This document shows positions 1,933-40,942 of a DNA stretch of 41,202 nucleotides, piece by piece. The notes under the pieces are model-generated. The model made no database searches. It was not told the DNA's origin and saw only the letters and a list, made by a program, of their open reading frames with translations. The first letter of the stretch is position 1, and each line of letters begins with the position of its first letter. A program made the position numbers and the translations under genes. The DNA is from a virus: the IMG/VR virus record IMGVR_UViG_3300005618_000010, positions 1-41,202 of that record; one strand, 5' to 3'.

Positions 1933-2628
1933 GTGGAAACCGCAACGCCCGACGCGAGCGCCCCTGCCGCTGAAGCAACCCAACAACCCGCACCCGAACC
2001 GACGCTCGAGGACGTTTACAAGAGCGCCGCCGCCGATTTTCAACTCGCAGCGCCAGTCGCACCCGTAGCGCCGCCCCAACCGGCCATCGCACCATCTGCG
2101 CCAGCCGCGCCAATCATCCCGGACCCCTACGACACGGAGGCCCACAAGGCGTATCTCGCACAGCTGGCCAAGGGTCAGACAGAAACGCAGGAAGCACTGA
2201 GGCAAGTCGCCGGATTCCTTACTCAGCAACAGCAGAAGGAAGCCAAGGCTGCACTCGACGCCGATATCAAAAGTGCCGTTGACACCGTGAACGAGGTCGT
2301 CGGCCACCCGAAACCGAAAGTCATCGAAGCGATGCTCGATGCGAAGGCCAGAGAAGACGTTCGTTTCAAGGCGCTGTTCGAAAACCGGGCGAAGAACCCG
2401 GCCGCCTGGAGCAACGCCCTGAAGGCCGTTTCGCGCGAGATCGCCGCCGATCTGTCGGTCAAGGTGGACCCGGCTTTGCAAGCGTCGCAACGGGCACGAA
2501 AGATTGCCCAGCAACAAATGGCGACCACCGAAGCCCCGAAGTCAGAAACGGAAGAGTGGGAATCGCTCTCCGTCGAGGAACAGCAAGCGAAGATGAATCG
2601 CATGCTGAACCAAGCAATGATGGGCTGA
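1933..2628 (+). CDS. scaffold-like head assembly protein
   Basis: GTG start, 231 residues. The N-terminus is strongly Ala/Pro-rich (residues 1-60), the rest is charged, helical and glutamine-rich (GFLTQQQQKEAKAALDADIK), and the C-terminus reads SVEEQQAKMNRMLNQAMMG. Composition, size and position immediately upstream of the major capsid gene are those of phage scaffold proteins, which fill the prohead and leave before DNA packaging. There is no protease triad visible, so this looks like a plain scaffold rather than a protease-scaffold fusion. The call rests on position and composition. Confidence 0.65.
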   Translation: METATPDASAPAAEATQQPAPEPTLEDVYKSAAADFQLAAPVAPVAPPQPAIAPSAPAAPIIPDPYDTEAHKAYLAQLAKGQTETQEALRQVAGFLTQQQQKEAKAALDADIKSAVDTVNEVVGHPKPKVIEAMLDAKAREDVRFKALFENRAKNPAAWSNALKAVSREIAADLSVKVDPALQASQRARKIAQQQMATTEAPKSETEEWESLSVEEQQAKMNRMLNQAMMG

Positions 2629-2677
2629 ACGCTGGACGCCGTGACCTGAAGCGCCGAGAGGCGAAAGGAAAAACATC

Positions 2678-3763
2678 ATGGCTGCAATTGTCACCACAAA
2701 CGGAACCTTCCTCACCCAGCCCGTCAACTACGTGCTGATGAAGGGACTGCTCCAGGCTGCACGCAAGAAACTCCCGTATTTCAACGGCACGCTGCCGGGA
2801 GAACTCATCAAGAACGGCGGATCGTCCGCCGTGAAGTGGGAGCGAATCAACAACCTCGCCGCCGTCAGCACGGCGCTGGGTGAATTCGTCGGCACTTCGG
2901 CGTTCCTGTTCGGACGCGCCCTGGTCACGCCGACCTATTCGTCCGTGACCGCGACCGCCGCCAAGTACGGCAACGCGATCCAGGTCACCGAGGAAGTCGA
3001 CCTGTTCAACGTCAACACCCGTTCGCTCAAGCTGATGGACACGCTGGGCGCGAACGCGGGCGAGTCGCTGAACACCGTCCTGAAGGCCGAGTACGACAAT
3101 GCGACGCAGATCCGCTATTGCAATGCAGCGGCCGGCGGCGCGACGAAGACCTCGGACGTCGCATCGAAGATGATCCTCCTGGACATCTCCTACGCGGTGA
3201 ACAAGATCAATGCCGGTTCCGGGATGCCATTTACGCCGATGGCGACTGGTTCGCGTGACATCGGCACCACGCCGATCCGCGCGTCCTACTACGGCATCTG
3301 CCATGTGGACGTCGAAGAGGACATCCGCGGGCTGACCGGGTTCTCGCCCGTCGAGGTCTATGGCGGCTACACCGAAACGATGCCGTTCGAATTCGGCGCC
3401 GTCGGCGGTGTGCGCTGGTGCAGCACGCAGGTCTCGACGATCCAGTTGTCGGCCGGCAAAAAGACCGCCACCGGTTATCGGGGCTCGACCACGATCCTGA
3501 ACAACGTGTACTCGTCCTACATCTACGGCCGGGAAGCGATCGGCACGGTGGGCCTGGGCAACATGCACGCCGCGAACTCCTACGAAATGTACAACCCGAA
3601 GACCCCGCCCGCAGTCGAGGCGATCTTCAAGCCGGTCGGGAGTGCCGGCGCGGGCGACCCGTACAACGAGATCGCGTCGTTGGCGTGGAAAGCCTGGTTC
3701 GTCGGGAAGATCCTGAACTCGACCTGGATCGTGAAGCTCAAGTGCCTCGCGACCAACCTGTAA
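2678..3763 (+). CDS. major capsid protein, N4-gp56 family
   Basis: 361 residues. The order of segments matches the N4-gp56-type major capsid family: an N-terminal arm, KWERINNLAAVSTALGEFVG, the VTATAAKYGNAIQVTEEVDL segment, then GANAGESLNTVLKAEYDNAT and the ...ASYYGICHVDVEEDIRGL region. This shell protein has an HK97-like fold and builds the icosahedral head. GAAAGGAAAAACATC precedes the ATG as ribosome binding site. A strong hairpin 16 bp after the stop would isolate this highly expressed gene from the tail genes. Confidence 0.85.
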   Translation: MAAIVTTNGTFLTQPVNYVLMKGLLQAARKKLPYFNGTLPGELIKNGGSSAVKWERINNLAAVSTALGEFVGTSAFLFGRALVTPTYSSVTATAAKYGNAIQVTEEVDLFNVNTRSLKLMDTLGANAGESLNTVLKAEYDNATQIRYCNAAAGGATKTSDVASKMILLDISYAVNKINAGSGMPFTPMATGSRDIGTTPIRASYYGICHVDVEEDIRGLTGFSPVEVYGGYTETMPFEFGAVGGVRWCSTQVSTIQLSAGKKTATGYRGSTTILNNVYSSYIYGREAIGTVGLGNMHAANSYEMYNPKTPPAVEAIFKPVGSAGAGDPYNEIASLAWKAWFVGKILNSTWIVKLKCLATNL

Positions 3764-3778
3764 CGCAGTAGCGATGAA

Positions 3779-3803
3779 CGGGCGGGGCCAATAACCCCGC
3801 CCG
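3779..3803 (+). terminator. hairpin terminator after the major capsid gene
   Basis: A perfect 9-bp GC stem, CGGGCGGGG with CCCCGCCCG, around a 7-nt loop (CCAATAA), placed between the major capsid stop and the next start. No strong T-run follows (CTTCGAAAG), so termination would be partial or the hairpin could act to stabilise the upstream mRNA end. Visible directly in the sequence. Confidence 0.7.
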
Positions 3804-3812
3804 CTTCGAAAG

Positions 3813-4055
3813 ATGAACAGCGTAAAGATTGAAATGAATATCGGCGGCAGGGAGTTCGAACTGTCGTATGACATTCCCGATGCGATCGGCGAAATAAGCC
3901 CGACGGATTTGAACGCCACCTGGCTCGACGAGCGCTTTCGCGTCGCGCTGCGGGCGATTGTCGGACGGCCTGTTCTCCGGATGCGCGCCGAAGCGCCGAC
4001 TCCGATCCTCGTCAAACCCGCGGCGAAACGCGTGACGGCTGCCGGAGCGCTCTGA
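3813..4055 (+). CDS. small hypothetical protein (80 aa)
   Basis: Product starts MNSVKIEMNIGGREFELSYD, a predicted beta-rich N-terminus, followed by a short helical part and a basic tail (LVKPAAKRVTAAGAL). It is 1 nt upstream of the adaptor gene and just after the capsid terminator. No family recognised. A head-tail joining accessory role would fit the position but is not shown. Confidence 0.6.
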   Translation: MNSVKIEMNIGGREFELSYDIPDAIGEISPTDLNATWLDERFRVALRAIVGRPVLRMRAEAPTPILVKPAAKRVTAAGAL

Positions 4056-20354: not shown

Positions 20355-20585
20355 TCAGCGAATCCTCGTTCTGAGCATTTCGTCCATGCGCGGCGAAACA
20401 TCCTTCAGCCGCACAATGTCGGAAGCCTTGAGTTCAAGCCCCTGCACTTTCTCCACATCGTTTCCGACATAGCGGGCCTGTGTAGATGCGATGTTGTGCG
20501 AAAGGCACCACGCGATGAAATCCTTGTAGGTTCCACCAGCGACAACCTTTTTCCTGAACACAAGTTTGGCGTCCCTATCAGTCAT
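20355..20585 (-). CDS. hypothetical protein (76 aa)
   Basis: Start at the ATG that overlaps the methyltransferase stop (ATGA); a GTG three codons upstream is the alternative. Product MTDRDAKLVFRKKVVAGGTY, then KDFIAWCLSHNIASTQARYV and VQGLELKASDIVRLKDVSPR. Mostly helical and basic. No family recognised; it may be linked to methyltransferase function by operon position only. Confidence 0.6.
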   Translation of the reverse strand: MTDRDAKLVFRKKVVAGGTYKDFIAWCLSHNIASTQARYVGNDVEKVQGLELKASDIVRLKDVSPRMDEMLRTRIR

Positions 20586-21345
20586 CGCTGCCACGCGAGG
20601 TACGCTTTGACGACTTCCGCGGCAAGCTCCGCAACGATTGCATTGCCGTAACCCCGCAGTCGTCCCACACGCTCGGCAGCCCCATGAGCCAGCGGGAATG
20701 TGCCGGGTTCAACTGGCCGCGCTTTCCCGTCTGTGCAGGGGAGCCAGTCGCACTCGCGCCAGAAACCGTTAGTTGGGCCTGCCTGGGCAATTGATCCACA
20801 CGCCGGCGCTCCGATCCGTCCGGGTTCGTCCCCGTCGTCGCCATGCCCGCCGTGTCCTTCCAGTCCCTCGCGCTTGGCGTCGCCCAACTCGCCACCACGG
20901 ACAGGTTCTCGCTGACCCCGGTGTCCGCGGTCTGGGGCGTCGGCCACGAACCACGTTCTGTGCCGACCGTGCGGGGCACCGATGCCCGCAGCAGGCACAA
21001 CGATCGGCCCGAAGGCATAGCCACACGCTTCCAGGTCAGTTTGTACAAGGTCGAGCCACACTCGCGCACCCGCGCTCGCAACCTGTTCTCCAAACACGAC
21101 GCAAGGCTCGCGCTGCTCGATGAGATGGAACCATGCGGGCCAAAGGTGCCGCTCGTCAGCAAACCCAAGTCCTTTGCCTGCTTCGCTGTAAGGCTGGCAC
21201 GGACAGGATCCGGTCCACCCTGGGCGCGAATCAGGCCACCCGGCGAGCCGGAGGGCGTAACTCCAGACTCCAACGCCGGCGAAGAAGTGGCACTGGCTGA
21301 ATCCTGCAAGGTCGGCAGGTCGAATATCGACAATTGACCGCTCAT
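20578..21345 (-). CDS. second coding frame across the methyltransferase gene
   Basis: 255 residues in a different frame of the same strand. Reads MSGQLSIFDLPTLQDSASAT, later LYKLTWKRVAMPSGRSLCLL, GSWPTPQTADTGVSENLSVV, ASWATPSARDWKDTAGMATT and RGQLNPAHSRWLMGLPSVWD. These WPTP/ATPSARDW and LNP..RWLMG..W motifs are familiar from a phage/bacterial protein family often annotated as methyltransferase-associated or hypothetical. So this is unlikely to be a meaningless shadow. The start is coupled to nothing obvious; GGGGGAAG lies upstream. See findings. Confidence 0.65.
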   Translation of the reverse strand: MSGQLSIFDLPTLQDSASATSSPALESGVTPSGSPGGLIRAQGGPDPVRASLTAKQAKDLGLLTSGTFGPHGSISSSSASLASCLENRLRARVRECGSTLYKLTWKRVAMPSGRSLCLLRASVPRTVGTERGSWPTPQTADTGVSENLSVVASWATPSARDWKDTAGMATTGTNPDGSERRRVDQLPRQAQLTVSGASATGSPAQTGKRGQLNPAHSRWLMGLPSVWDDCGVTAMQSLRSLPRKSSKRTSRGSDD

Positions 21346-21439
21346 CGACTTCCCCCGGAGCAATGACGCCGGCGCGGATCAACTCCCGCAACCAGGCGGC
21401 GGCTTTGGGGTCGATTTCGTTGTAGTAGGCGCATGGCAT
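20582..21439 (-). CDS. C5-cytosine DNA methyltransferase
   Basis: 285 residues from the ATG at 21439, which overlaps the preceding 22-codon ORF (TAATG). Motif I-like FFAGVG (53-58), motif IV PCQPYS with catalytic Cys81, motif VI-like GEQV (117-120), motif VIII GRHRTWFVAD, and C-terminal RGYGNAI (motif X-like). Such phage enzymes methylate cytosine to evade host restriction. No partner endonuclease is present. A longer frame to 21562 is shadow. Nearly the whole gene is overlapped by the second frame above. Confidence 0.85.
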   Translation of the reverse strand: MPCAYYNEIDPKAAAWLRELIRAGVIAPGEVDERSIVDIRPADLAGFSQCHFFAGVGVWSYALRLAGWPDSRPGWTGSCPCQPYSEAGKGLGFADERHLWPAWFHLIEQREPCVVFGEQVASAGARVWLDLVQTDLEACGYAFGPIVVPAAGIGAPHGRHRTWFVADAPDRGHRGQREPVRGGELGDAKREGLEGHGGHGDDGDEPGRIGAPACGSIAQAGPTNGFWRECDWLPCTDGKARPVEPGTFPLAHGAAERVGRLRGYGNAIVAELAAEVVKAYLAWQR

Positions 21440-21507
21440 TACGCTGTGGCGTACCCGTCGAAGGAACGGTAGAAGTGGGGTGCGGCTGGCTGTGCAGGTG
21501 TTGTCAT
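21439..21507 (-). CDS. 22-residue coupling ORF before the methyltransferase
   Basis: Begins MTTPAQPAAPHFYRSFDGYA. Its ATG overlaps the upstream stop (ATGA) with GGAGAGTCC as ribosome site, and its TAA overlaps the methyltransferase ATG (TAATG). Both junctions imply active translation and coupling. It may act as a leader for expression of the methyltransferase rather than as a stable protein. Confidence 0.5.
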   Translation of the reverse strand: MTTPAQPAAPHFYRSFDGYATA

Positions 21508-21713
21508 GGACTCTCCGGGGCACCTTTTGCCCGTTTTTCAGACTCGGCCACAGCCAAGACATTCCGACGACGATAATATCGGGACAGGTGCTTGCGACCG
21601 AGCTTCAACGTTGTCCATTCCGCTCCCGCGTTAAAAGACACGCGGGCACGCCTATGGCGTTTTCCAGCCTCTCGTTCCTGCCGTCCCGGATTACCAAATC
21701 TACGCGCCGTCAT
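21504..21713 (-). CDS. small very basic protein (69 aa)
   Basis: ATG preceded by GAGGGAACAGTCCAC. Arg/Lys-rich throughout (RQEREAGKRHRRARVSFNAG, LGRKHLSRYYRRRNVLAVAE), so nucleic acid binding is plausible. Stop overlaps the next start by ATGA. No family recognised. The 73 bp upstream (21714-21786) hold no gene and no convincing promoter. Confidence 0.5.
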   Translation of the reverse strand: MTARRFGNPGRQEREAGKRHRRARVSFNAGAEWTTLKLGRKHLSRYYRRRNVLAVAESEKRAKGAPESP

Positions 21714-34563: not shown

Positions 34564-35607
34564 GTGCTGAATCACAGCATCAAAAAGCCCGAACTCTCCC
34601 GCGGCATCGCGCCACACAAGGGCCCGATCAACTGGGACGCGCTGCGGCTGATTGTCGACCGCGCGGAGGGCTCGGCGCTCGCAAAACAGTTGATGGGACC
34701 ACGGCTCCTGAAGGCCGTCCGACGGCACGGCATCGAATCGCTGACGCCGGAATGGCGCTACCGCTACTGCGGCGCGCGCCTCGCGCTGGGCGACTTCTCG
34801 GACTACTGGGGCTGGGAGTTCCGCGGGTATTCGGACGCTGACGAGGGTGCCGGCTGGGCTGCGGCGATGTATTGGGAGGAAACCTGGCTGCCGAAGTGGG
34901 GCGGCGGGTACGTCGATCGCCTGCTTGTGCTCGGCGAACAGGGCGTCGGCGACGCTGTTTTCTTCGCTTCGATCCTGCCGGAGTGCATGACGCGCGTGAA
35001 AACCGTCGTCTATGAATGCGACGACAGGCTGCACACGCTGCTCGAGCGCAGCCTGCCGGGGCTTGTCTGCGACAAGGAGCGGCCGTTCGAAGAGCGGCGC
35101 GCTGGCGACGCTTTTATCCCAGCGGCCGAACTCATGCGGATGTTTCGACGGGACCGCCGGCACTTTCCTGGCAAGCCGTATCTACGCCCGGATCCGGCGC
35201 GCGTTGCAGAATTCGAGCGTTTCGCTGGCCGCGATGGCGTCGCGTGGAACGCGCGCCAGGGCTCGCTCGACCCACTGAAACTGGAACTCCCGCACCCGGT
35301 CAGCCTGCAGTACAAGACATTCCACAGCGAGATTGAGCAGCCGCCTGTTGACCTCTGGGCGGATATCGAAGGCATTGTTGCCCTGTGCTCGGTGCTAAAC
35401 CGCGTCGTGACGGTCCCGACTAGCGTCCATCACTTCGCGGGCGCACTGGGCAAGCGTGTCGAGATCATCTGCCCGGAGGTTGCTGGCGTTGAGAATCAAA
35501 TCAAGTGGGACCATCCGCTCGGGATGTTGCCGTGGTACGGCAACGCGTGCGTATACCGAGATATCACGGCATGGAAGGCGGCGCAACGCGAGAGGGGCGC
35601 GCCATGA
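34564..35607 (+). CDS. glycosyltransferase family 9-like protein
   Basis: 347 residues, GTG start. LLVLGEQGVGDAVFFASILP and VVYECDDRLHTLLERSLPGL are the N-terminal Rossmann features of GT9/heptosyltransferase-like domains. The C-terminal VTVPTSVHHFAGALGKRVEI corresponds to their donor-binding motif (TSVHHFAGALG). Such enzymes transfer sugars from nucleotide donors. The role in a phage packaging module is unclear: it may modify a virion protein, DNA or host surface sugar. ATGA overlap with the next glycosyltransferase suggests a pathway pair. Confidence 0.75.
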   Translation: MLNHSIKKPELSRGIAPHKGPINWDALRLIVDRAEGSALAKQLMGPRLLKAVRRHGIESLTPEWRYRYCGARLALGDFSDYWGWEFRGYSDADEGAGWAAAMYWEETWLPKWGGGYVDRLLVLGEQGVGDAVFFASILPECMTRVKTVVYECDDRLHTLLERSLPGLVCDKERPFEERRAGDAFIPAAELMRMFRRDRRHFPGKPYLRPDPARVAEFERFAGRDGVAWNARQGSLDPLKLELPHPVSLQYKTFHSEIEQPPVDLWADIEGIVALCSVLNRVVTVPTSVHHFAGALGKRVEIICPEVAGVENQIKWDHPLGMLPWYGNACVYRDITAWKAAQRERGAP

Positions 35608-36977
35608 TCCTCCTCCCATCGCGCGGGCGCCCGGAAAAACTTGCGCGCTTTCTCAAGGCGTATCGGGACACTGGAGGCACCGAACCTGGTCTGCTGATGA
35701 TCGAGGCGCGCGACGAGGCCGCCTATGCGGGCATTGAATTACCCGCGAATTGGCGCCTTCAGATCGTTCCCGAGTCTCTTATCTCGAAGAAATTCAACGA
35801 CGGCGCTCTCGTGTATGCGCCGGGCGAGCCTTGCTACATGATCTGCGCCGACGACATGGTTCCGGAAACCCACGGCTGGGATGTGGCACTGAAAGACGCC
35901 TGCCTCCCGGGATTTATTTCGCACGGAGACGACAAACTGACCGGCTCGGAAATGTCGACGCACTTCTGCGTGTCAGGCGAAGTCGTCAGGCGCCTCGGAT
36001 ATCTTGCAAACCCGAAATTCGGGCATTTCTACTGGGACAACGTGCTGCGCGACGTCGGCATGGCCGCCGGAATCTTCCGGGCCGTGCCGGGGGTTGTTAC
36101 CAGGCATCTGCACTGGTCGATTACGGGCGAGTTCGACCAGACCAGCAAGGAGCGCGGATCGTCGGATGCGGACGCGGAAATATACGCTCTATGGCAGCAA
36201 ACCGAACGCGCGGCGGATGTGGCTCGCGTGATAGGCACGAAAGCGCCGTCTAGCGTCGCCGTGGTGTGCGTCGAAATGGGCGACTACTGCGGACGCGGCG
36301 AGCGGTATGTGCGCACGCTGAAGGCGATGGTCGCGCGGCATTTGAACGTCCCGCACACGTTCTATTGCATCACGGACACCCCGAAAAGCGGCATCAATTG
36401 CATCGAGGCCGACCCGCGCGCGCCGGGATGGTGGCAGAAACTGCATCAGTTCAAGCATGGTCTTTTTACCGAGGACAAGATTCTTTCCTTCGACCTCGAC
36501 ACGTTCGTCATCGGCAACATCGACAAGATCGTCGAGCTCGACACTGACCTCGCGCTTATCCGCGATTTCTGGCGCCCGCAGGTTGCGATGAACGCCGTCA
36601 TGCTCTGGCGCAATGGAGGACTCGCGCATCTGTTCTGGGATTTCTACGAAGAGCAGGGATTTCCACAGGAGTACGCCTTCGGGGACGGCGGCTGGATGGG
36701 CGACCAGGCAATGCCGAAAATGAACTTCCACATGCTCCAGGATCAGTTTCCCGGGCAACTCGTCAGCTACAAGACCGAATGCATGAAGATCGGTCTAGAG
36801 AATCTGAAAGCGGCGCCCGTCGGAGCGCGCATCGTCTGCTTCCACGGCCATCCGCGCCCGCATGAGGCCGATGGCTGGGCGCGCGGTGTGTGGAATCAAT
36901 ACAAGCCGGTACAGAGCGACGAAGCGAGCCGGATTATTCGGCTCTCGGAGTTTCAGCAAACGGTGGCGCCGCATTGA
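35604..36977 (+). CDS. two-domain glycosyltransferase (GT2-like + GT8-like)
   Basis: 457 residues from the ATG overlapping the previous stop. The N-terminal ~200 residues are GT-A-like: MILLPSRGRPEKLARFLKAY and CYMICADDMVPETHGWDVAL with an ADD metal motif. The C-terminal ~250 residues form a second GT-A domain: SVAVVCVEMGDYCGRGERYV, GWWQKLHQFKHGLF and KILSFDLDTFVIGNIDKIVE with a DLD motif. Two active sites in one chain suggest consecutive transfers. Acceptor unknown. Confidence 0.72.
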   Translation: MILLPSRGRPEKLARFLKAYRDTGGTEPGLLMIEARDEAAYAGIELPANWRLQIVPESLISKKFNDGALVYAPGEPCYMICADDMVPETHGWDVALKDACLPGFISHGDDKLTGSEMSTHFCVSGEVVRRLGYLANPKFGHFYWDNVLRDVGMAAGIFRAVPGVVTRHLHWSITGEFDQTSKERGSSDADAEIYALWQQTERAADVARVIGTKAPSSVAVVCVEMGDYCGRGERYVRTLKAMVARHLNVPHTFYCITDTPKSGINCIEADPRAPGWWQKLHQFKHGLFTEDKILSFDLDTFVIGNIDKIVELDTDLALIRDFWRPQVAMNAVMLWRNGGLAHLFWDFYEEQGFPQEYAFGDGGWMGDQAMPKMNFHMLQDQFPGQLVSYKTECMKIGLENLKAAPVGARIVCFHGHPRPHEADGWARGVWNQYKPVQSDEASRIIRLSEFQQTVAPH

Positions 36978-38696: not shown

Positions 38697-40942
38697 TGGC
38701 TGACGCAATGGTCACAACCGCCACCGTCAATCCGCCGCCTGGCCAAGGCGACGCGCCGGCCAAGGGTGCGCGCATCACGAAAAAGGACTGGGAGAAGGTC
38801 CAGACGTTCCTGATGGCTGAACTGGAGGCCCGCAAGCGCTCTGATTTCCGGCAATCCGCCGAGCGCCGCTGGCGTGAAGTCGACCGCCAGATCGCGATGG
38901 ATCCGATGATGAAGATCGCCCGTGATGGCAGCCAGGTCGACTCAGGCTGGCACAACACCATCGAACTCGGCGAGCTCGCCAAATCGTCCGAAAACATGAG
39001 CGCAGATGTGCGTCGCATCGTTTTTCCGCAGTCGCGGTACTGGAATGAGCCGCACGCCGACGTCGCCGAAGCGATGCCGTTTGACCCGCAGACCGGCACA
39101 AAAACGGTCCCGGACAAGCTCCAGACGGGCGTCGACGGCCGATTGCGCGCATTTATGGCGCAGCAGCACAGCGATTTCGGCCTGAAAGATCGCGTCGAAT
39201 TGTCGGTGAAGGAGGCCCTGCATCACGGCTCTTTTGTCGCCGAGGTCGACTGGGACGAGCAGGAAATGGTTTTCGGCGGTGAGCGCACGAAGACGTTCGG
39301 CGCTGGCGTTTGGATTCCGCATTCGATGTGGAACTGCTATCCGGACCCTTCGCCGTCGGTCGTCGGGACGAACATGTTCTACACCGGGACGATGTTCATC
39401 GAGCGCTACCTGCCGCGCCACAAGGCGGAAAAGCTCGTGAAATCTGGCCAGGAAGGCTACATGGCGAGCCAGTGGCGGCTCGTGAAAAAGGACGAGCACA
39501 AAGTCGGCGGCGAAACAATCAAGGACGTAAAGATCACTACGTATTGGGGCGACATTGTGATCGAGCGCTCCGACGGCAATGACCTGTATTTCCCGAACCA
39601 CAAGGCGATGCTCTTCAACGGCGTCATCTGCTACATGGCGCCGAATGAAACGCCATATGTGCCGATTATCTTCCGCGGCTATGAGCGTCCGGACGTACGC
39701 AGCCCGTACTACACGTCGCCAATCGTCAAGCTCTCGCCGACGCAGAAATTGGCCTCCACGCTCGCGAACAAGGCGATGGACGGCATAGAACTCATCCTTG
39801 AGCCACCCATCGTCTATGACGGCAACGACCCGGATTTCGTGCTGAACGGGGGGCCGGAAATCCGTCCCGGCGCGAAGGTTTCGAGCAAAGGGAAAAACGC
39901 ATTCCAGCAGGTTCAGATCGGCGATCCGATGGTTGCGATCACCGGGCTGCAGTGGGCGGTCGGCGAAATGAAGGAAAAGCTCGGTCGCCCGGGAAAGCCC
40001 GTCGGCGATCGCGCGACGAAGGCCGAAGTCGTGAAGGCGTCTCAGGACCAGGAGGTCTCGCTGGTCGATTTCATCGACAAGGTAGAGGTCGGGCTGCGCA
40101 CATATCTCTACATGCAGCACGAATTGAACCTCCGGAAGCTGACAGAGTACAGCTACTACAGCCCGGAAATGGATGATCCGGACTTCCTGACGGTGAAAAG
40201 GTCGGATCTTCCGAAGGCGGTCCATTTCGAAGTTGTCGGCGCTCGCGGCGTGCTCGGGGAGCAGGAAAGAAACGAAAAAGTGACCGCCGTCACCGTATTT
40301 GCGTCCGGCAATCCGCTGTTTGCGCCCCTGCTTGAGCCGCGCGACATCCTGACGCAGATGTACCAGGACGCGGGCGCGAAGAACGCCGAGACGTTCGTGA
40401 AGCGTGAGGGCTCGGAAGACCCAGCCGCGCTGAAGGCGCAACTCGGTCAGGCGACGAAAGCCGTGCAGCAACTCGGCCAGGAACTCCAGCAGGAGAAATC
40501 AGGCAACGCCGCAAAGATGGCGAAGGTACAGGCCGACGCAGCAGCGAAGCAGGCGAAGCTCGAACAGGACGCCGCAATCGCGTCCGCAAAGATTCAGGCC
40601 GACTACGAGACGAAGATGGCTCAGATTCAGGCCGACGCAAAAGCCGAAGGCATGCGCGTGTTTCATGAACATCTTGCGACCCTGCGCGAAAACGACTTGA
40701 AAACCGCGCAGGCCGCGCACGCAGCGCGCTTGGAGGAAGAAAAGCTCGCCCAGGCAAACGCTGAATCGCAGGCCAAAGAAAAGGAGGCGAAACAAAAAGC
40801 GCTGGCCGAGCGTGATTCGAAAAGCGACGAGGTTCTGAAGGCGGTTCGTGAGACGCACGAATTGCTGAAAAAGCCGCGCATCAAGCGCGCCAAAAAGCTC
40901 GGCCCCCATGAGTGGGAAATGACCGAGACGATCGCGCCATGA
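38696..40942 (+). CDS. portal protein with long C-terminal coiled coil
   Basis: 748 residues from the ATG at 38696 (GAGGA 8 nt upstream; TTG and GTG just before are alternatives). Helical N-terminus, FPQSRYWNEPHADVAEAMPF, SVKEALHHGSFVAEVDWDEQ, IPHSMWNCYPDPSPSVVGTN and SPIVKLSPTQKLASTLANKA match large podovirus portal proteins. Residues ~580-720 are a long charged coiled coil (AAKQAKLEQDAAIASAKIQA) that may form the barrel inside the head. It forms the dodecameric vertex for DNA entry. Confidence 0.85.
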   Translation: MADAMVTTATVNPPPGQGDAPAKGARITKKDWEKVQTFLMAELEARKRSDFRQSAERRWREVDRQIAMDPMMKIARDGSQVDSGWHNTIELGELAKSSENMSADVRRIVFPQSRYWNEPHADVAEAMPFDPQTGTKTVPDKLQTGVDGRLRAFMAQQHSDFGLKDRVELSVKEALHHGSFVAEVDWDEQEMVFGGERTKTFGAGVWIPHSMWNCYPDPSPSVVGTNMFYTGTMFIERYLPRHKAEKLVKSGQEGYMASQWRLVKKDEHKVGGETIKDVKITTYWGDIVIERSDGNDLYFPNHKAMLFNGVICYMAPNETPYVPIIFRGYERPDVRSPYYTSPIVKLSPTQKLASTLANKAMDGIELILEPPIVYDGNDPDFVLNGGPEIRPGAKVSSKGKNAFQQVQIGDPMVAITGLQWAVGEMKEKLGRPGKPVGDRATKAEVVKASQDQEVSLVDFIDKVEVGLRTYLYMQHELNLRKLTEYSYYSPEMDDPDFLTVKRSDLPKAVHFEVVGARGVLGEQERNEKVTAVTVFASGNPLFAPLLEPRDILTQMYQDAGAKNAETFVKREGSEDPAALKAQLGQATKAVQQLGQELQQEKSGNAAKMAKVQADAAAKQAKLEQDAAIASAKIQADYETKMAQIQADAKAEGMRVFHEHLATLRENDLKTAQAAHAARLEEEKLAQANAESQAKEKEAKQKALAERDSKSDEVLKAVRETHELLKKPRIKRAKKLGPHEWEMTETIAP

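Follow-up and report, generated by a model that had tools for sequence, protein, structure and literature searches.

A phage cytosine-5 methyltransferase very probably made as two polypeptides from overlapping reading frames of one gene locus

On the minus strand of a phage genome, the gene for the catalytic chain of a predicted C5-cytosine methyltransferase (alpha) is overlapped in its +1 frame by a second gene (beta), and both frames are conserved and constrained across relatives. We consider it highly likely that a single cytosine-5 methyltransferase is made here as two polypeptides, translated from frames that overlap on the same piece of mRNA.

Gene layout of the locus

The window (the whole stretch of DNA that was analysed, 41,202 bp) comprises the entire virus record and contains integrase, terminase, portal, head, tail fibre and primase genes, and is therefore assigned to a temperate phage. 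Coordinates of the features at the methyltransferase locus are collected in Table 1. The alpha reading frame is open over 21562..20582 of the minus strand, and its start was placed by homology at the ATG at 21439 (MPCAYYNEID), the same position at which the original prediction had ended the feature. Beta, the smaller of the two genes and nested in alpha, starts at the internal ATG at 21345, and its codons begin at the second position of alpha codons (the +1 frame of alpha). Two coding frames on one strand over about 760 bp had been proposed from the sequence, together with a 255-aa second-frame protein and a set of quoted motifs; the frames, the protein and every motif are present. The description of this overlap as one of the longer ones of its kind is fair for the window at 764 nt, and open overlapping frames in relatives reach about 1,600 nt. 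Along the DNA, the methyltransferase motifs follow the canonical order (I to VIII, target domain, IX, X), with the middle part alone in the +1 frame.

Table 1. Positions of the two reading frames and their sequence features in the window
Feature	Position	Strand	Evidence
Alpha, predicted C5-cytosine methyltransferase catalytic subunit	20582..21439	-	Motifs I, IV, VI, VIII, X; phrog_363; PF00145; HhaI profile; Foldseek
Beta, 255 aa, read in +1; probable subunit for target recognition and motif IX	20578..21345	-	phrog_1008; constraint test
Two-frame overlap, 764 nt	20582..21345	-	ORF coordinates
Shine-Dalgarno-like GGGGGAA ahead of the beta ATG, within the alpha PGEVD codons	21350..21356	-	
Alpha motif I, FFAGVG (AdoMet binding)	21269..21286	-	Conserved in alignment
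Alpha motif IV, PCQPYS, catalytic Cys	21185..21202	-	HhaI profile match
Alpha motif VI, GEQV, catalytic Glu	21080..21091	-	Alignment
Alpha motif VIII, GAPHGRHR	20957..20980	-	HhaI profile match
Alpha motif X, RLRGYGNAIV	20633..20662	-	Alignment
Beta conserved segment GSTLYKLTWKRVAMPSGRSLCLLRAS, beta-specific N-terminal part	20980..21057	-	Alignment; low alpha synonymous diversity
Beta WPTP.../WATPSARDWKDT... modules, probable target-recognition domain	20713..20946	-	Likeness to ShiLan gp70 modules
Beta motif IX, LNPAHSRWLMGLPSVW (cf. Dcm RRLTPRECARLMGF)	20665..20712	-	Alignment

Elsewhere in the window, a 490-aa protein (35505-36977) has halves that match the glycosyltransferase families phrog_14945 and phrog_1962, with a further weak match to a DNA methyltransferase family. 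On the minus strand, open frames of 518 and 509 aa run antisense to the head and portal genes (2459-4015 and 38942-40471) and are probably a by-product of GC-rich coding on the opposite strand.

Selection on the second frame

Relatives of the locus were gathered twice, by beta and independently by alpha. Among the 66 dereplicated relatives chosen by alpha alone, the +1 frame held at least 200 open codons in 65 (the remaining one is a fragment with 195), compared with none of the 66 for the +2 frame. Synonymous shuffles were generated by permuting the synonymous codons of alpha with the protein and its codon usage retained. For the window alone, 2.7% of shuffles reached a +1 frame of equal length (p = 0.027, mildly unusual); across 119 relatives the median p-value for the +1 frame was 0.005, with p ≤ 0.05 in 110 of them, and the +2 control gave a median of 0.67. 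When each chain was located by profile, alpha and beta stood in the +1 relation in 324 of 331 loci, and the other seven hold both families with the frames displaced at a single indel or internal deletion.

Constraint was measured in 30 independent pairs of relatives as the share of differing codons at conserved alpha residues. This share was 0.53-0.57 at alpha 49-72, ahead of beta, and 0.50-0.55 at alpha 97-120, where beta is poorly conserved and which serves as an internal control. It fell to 0.13-0.15 at alpha 169-192, under the TWK..PSGR segment of beta, and to 0.15 at alpha 289-300, under motif IX, and rose again to 0.44 at alpha 313-324, at the end of alpha and past the conserved end of beta; p3/p1 divergence dropped from 3.3 to 1.2 in the same test. 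Synonymous variation in alpha thus declines from about 0.55 to about 0.13-0.15 where beta is conserved, and beta is under purifying selection and is not an annotation shadow.

An annotation shadow would be a second frame that is open and similar among relatives merely through the conservation of alpha in GC-rich DNA. At a GC content of 59% long open frames are commoner, and the shuffle result for the window taken singly is of the size that such an account allows, but it is contradicted by the profile of synonymous diversity, as well as by the openness of the +1 frame only, the shuffles across relatives, the recurrence of the pair in 324 loci, the start-codon bias described below and the occurrence of the layout among phages that infect other hosts, Paenibacillus for example; we regard it as practically dismissed. 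Second-frame stops in close relatives and conservation of the shadow kind only, which the original prediction had named as grounds for abandoning it, were sought and not found, and its expectation that both proteins would prove conserved holds.

Several loci at first appear to encode single-frame fusions (L062, L065, L066, L073, L243, L061 and L086). These were rejected as functional fusions and attributed to frame slips by indel or deletion. In L065 and L066 an internal deletion joins the catalytic N-terminus of alpha to the C-terminus of beta in one frame, and both are probably decayed copies.

The internal start site of beta

Of 111 loci, 96 have a start codon for beta at one of two aligned sites within the GEVDERSIEDV motif of alpha. 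At the second and commoner site (alpha D79), the ratio of GAT to GAC is 76:18, against 738:1346 elsewhere (p = 1e-18), and the use of GAT instead of GAC creates the beta ATG. The alpha codons at this site also yield an AGGAG-like sequence ahead of the start, AGG is enriched at the Arg of the motif, and in a test run on the aligned start sites the Shine-Dalgarno sequence exceeded that of synonymous shuffles (p = 4e-8). In the window beta starts at the first site, preceded by GGGGGAA; GAT is still preferred there (59:50, p = 1e-4), and the Shine-Dalgarno sequence is no stronger than in synonymous shuffles. The beta start codon and, at the commoner site only, the Shine-Dalgarno sequence are held in place by biased synonymous codons of alpha.

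These data bear on programmed ribosomal frameshifting, by which a slip near motif VIII would give one fused chain (I to VIII, target domain, IX) and not two subunits. The motif order on the DNA is collinear with that of single-chain enzymes and the split frames are nearly always +1, as frameshifting would have it. Yet far ahead of motif VIII beta is already under constraint (beta ~49-120), and its start codon, with the biased synonymous codons, lies about 390 nt upstream of VIII; both would be superfluous for a slip at VIII, and the fused product would be without motif X. Frameshifting is in our judgement unlikely, and separate initiation of beta at its own ATG is preferred.

The catalytic chain

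Alpha matched phrog_363 (E = 1.9e-79) and PF00145 (E = 4.1e-13); as a profile it aligned to HhaI residues 76-175, the match stopping at motif VIII, and Foldseek with alpha returned HhaI/HaeIII. The chain carries the features that define a C5-cytosine methyltransferase (motif I, PCQ of motif IV, Glu of motif VI, RxR of motif VIII and motif X). Behind motif VIII comes a variable stretch, followed by motif X; between the two, alpha has neither motif IX nor a recognisable target domain, and the model for motif IX locates it in the +1 frame. The methyltransferase had been called complete in the original prediction, which is wrong for alpha, because motif IX and the target-type modules sit in the second frame. 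No restriction gene was matched among the searched genes around the locus, and alpha is, as judged from its motifs and matches, a predicted orphan C5-cytosine methyltransferase chain.

Relation of beta to single-chain methyltransferases

Beta is a member of the phrog_1008 family ('DNA methyltransferase'; E = 7.5e-24) and was found in 224 phage records. Beta itself matched no Pfam family, members of its family gave scattered weak Pfam hits only, none of them to a methylase, and the beta profile had no match among PDB sequences. The AlphaFold2 model of beta was poor (pLDDT 64, pTM 0.29) and Foldseek with this model returned no match, so the target-domain fold of beta stays predicted.

It had been suggested to look for the second frame outside methyltransferase overlaps, and there the beta family makes up the C-terminal half of phage methyltransferases that are single chains. 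ShiLan gp70 has the same parts as the window locus (catalytic motifs, PTP modules, IX and X), but in a single frame and a single chain: it matches catalytic families (phrog_363), and its residues 196-388 match phrog_1008 (E = 2e-61), as do the ORFs nested in the K1G (1e-55) and Arcticfreeze (6e-72) loci. In the Mycobacterium phage proteins ShiLan gp70 and Papez gp46, a motif IX of the beta type lies between VIII and X of one chain, and in ShiLan gp70 several PTP modules precede it. The C-terminus of beta (LNPAHSRWLMGLPSVW) was aligned by eye with motif IX (Dcm RRLTPRECARLMGF). Because the beta-family match falls between VIII and X of single chains, beta is best interpreted as the middle portion of a C5 methyltransferase, detached from the rest, and most likely forms the other half of the enzyme. 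Its PTP-type modules are probably for target recognition, judging from their position and variability; single-linkage clustering of the modules merged nearly all of them and was uninformative on specificity.

The original prediction had considered a linked function for beta, as partner or as inhibitor of the methyltransferase. The partner role agrees with beta being the target-domain/IX part that alpha lacks; the inhibitor does not fit. More generally, beta could be a small protein in its own right, outside the enzyme, with an effect on the methyltransferase or the host (as inhibitor, antitoxin or anti-restriction factor), and its N-terminal ~125 residues (with the LTWK..PSGR segment) are indeed conserved, with no recognised counterpart in the single chain of ShiLan. 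This is nevertheless very unlikely in our view, given that the C-terminal half of beta corresponds to a part absent from alpha and present in single chains, and that beta without alpha was seen in no locus except fragments at contig edges.

Distribution of the layout among phages

A query with only the catalytic chain of a Paenibacillus phage, from a different lineage, gave 80 loci, with IX in the +1 frame and X in the 0 frame in 73; the nested layout was found in 6 of 9 loci of the Microbacterium phage type, and the ShiLan-type scan gave 29 nested, 21 M.AquI-like and 10 single-chain loci, and since all of these are the loci nearest to the queries, the frequencies describe these families and not all phage methyltransferases. 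In the M.AquI-like loci (e.g. L441, L437 and GordDuk1, L334) the catalytic frame stops right after VIII and both IX and X are in +1, with the frame of X partly dependent on one seed. The motif IX and X models behind the frame assignments in all these scans took their seeds from pattern hits within the data set itself. In the unrooted tree of catalytic domains, a branch (98/97) has the nested forms on a single side.

Named carriers of the nested pair include N15, epsilon15, K1G, PMG1, PhiXhv-28, Paenibacillus phages and Stenotrophomonas SBP3.1phi2.1. Both frames are annotated as DNA methyltransferases in K1G (ORF31/ORF30), PhiXhv-28 and Arcticfreeze, in records that state no mechanism. Alpha alone is annotated in many records (N15 and epsilon15 among them) and beta alone in one PMG1 record; among the matches listed to the N15 gene, all those in E. 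coli genomes are annotated as one DNA cytosine methyltransferase. No paper presenting the nested layout as general in phages was found in the literature searched, a partial collection. By these sequence comparisons, the two-polypeptide nested layout appears to be far commoner than the annotations imply.

Rhodococcus phage ReT1v-1 (L512 1300-2400) shows a fourth arrangement, in which the PTP modules are in +1 (under the 'hypothetical protein' RPTV1_580) and the catalytic frame holds both IX and X. In the single-chain loci L426 and L428, extra PTP modules can also be read in +1 after VIII, before the main-frame modules begin, and it looks as if modules had slipped between frames. In Microcystis phage Mwe-JY08 (L511 60-760) the nested pair is readable, although a small hypothetical protein is all that the record lists at this place.

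Comparison with known systems

M.EcoHK31I is a two-polypeptide enzyme, with the gene for its small chain contained in that for its large chain and read in a different frame. The M.EcoHK31I large subunit has motifs I-VIII and X and the small subunit motif IX (PMC3404938), the same division of motifs as in the window. The two differ in that the predicted target domain of M.EcoHK31I (YGGCCR) was assigned to the large subunit (PMC3404938), whereas the target-type modules of the window are in beta, and in that M.EcoHK31I belongs to a restriction-modification system, of which the searched genes around the window locus gave no sign in the form of a restriction-gene match. By its published description, M.EcoHK31I is the enzyme whose type of split the window would fit. 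M.AquI (CYCGRG) also has a catalytic half and a target/IX half on two polypeptides, but its small subunit includes motif X, which the window has in the alpha frame, and the window is thus not of the M.AquI type. An HNH endonuclease hidden out of frame in a phage methylase (PMC11855218) resembles the window in that a second protein occupies another frame of a methylase gene, and differs in being a homing insertion in the third frame with an unrelated function. Set against these systems, split methyltransferases of two polypeptides are of a known kind, and what appears to be new here is their frequency in phages and their relation to single-chain enzymes.

Discussion

We propose that alpha would supply AdoMet binding, the catalytic Cys and Glu and motif X, and that beta, expressed by separate initiation at the ATG within alpha, would contribute motif IX and the probable target-recognition modules, the parts that stand between VIII and X in ordinary enzymes. 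Both chains would be needed, and their assembly would give a single active enzyme for methylating the DNA of the phage itself, presumably at a sequence read by beta. Its role would most likely be protection against host restriction, or orphan modification.

A broader reading, for which we see about even chances, is that a target-recognition/IX cassette set in frame +1 relative to the catalytic gene is the rule among phage C5 methyltransferases, and that IX, X and the modules have switched frame several times (nested, M.AquI-like, single-chain and the modules-only form of the Rhodococcus phage). If so, two-frame coding would be a stable, selected linkage of catalytic and specificity halves over a large part of phage diversity, and the databases would hold many phage methyltransferases that lack their specificity half.

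Where alpha alone is annotated, cloning or modelling it is expected to give an inactive or misread enzyme, and specificity predictions for such phage methyltransferases are therefore probably incomplete. The locus is an uncommon example of a same-strand overlap that is both long and old and in which linkage has an evident rationale, the two genes being the probable halves of one enzyme. It was examined here with comparative data from hundreds of loci, and it is well suited to the study of how overlapping genes originate and persist.
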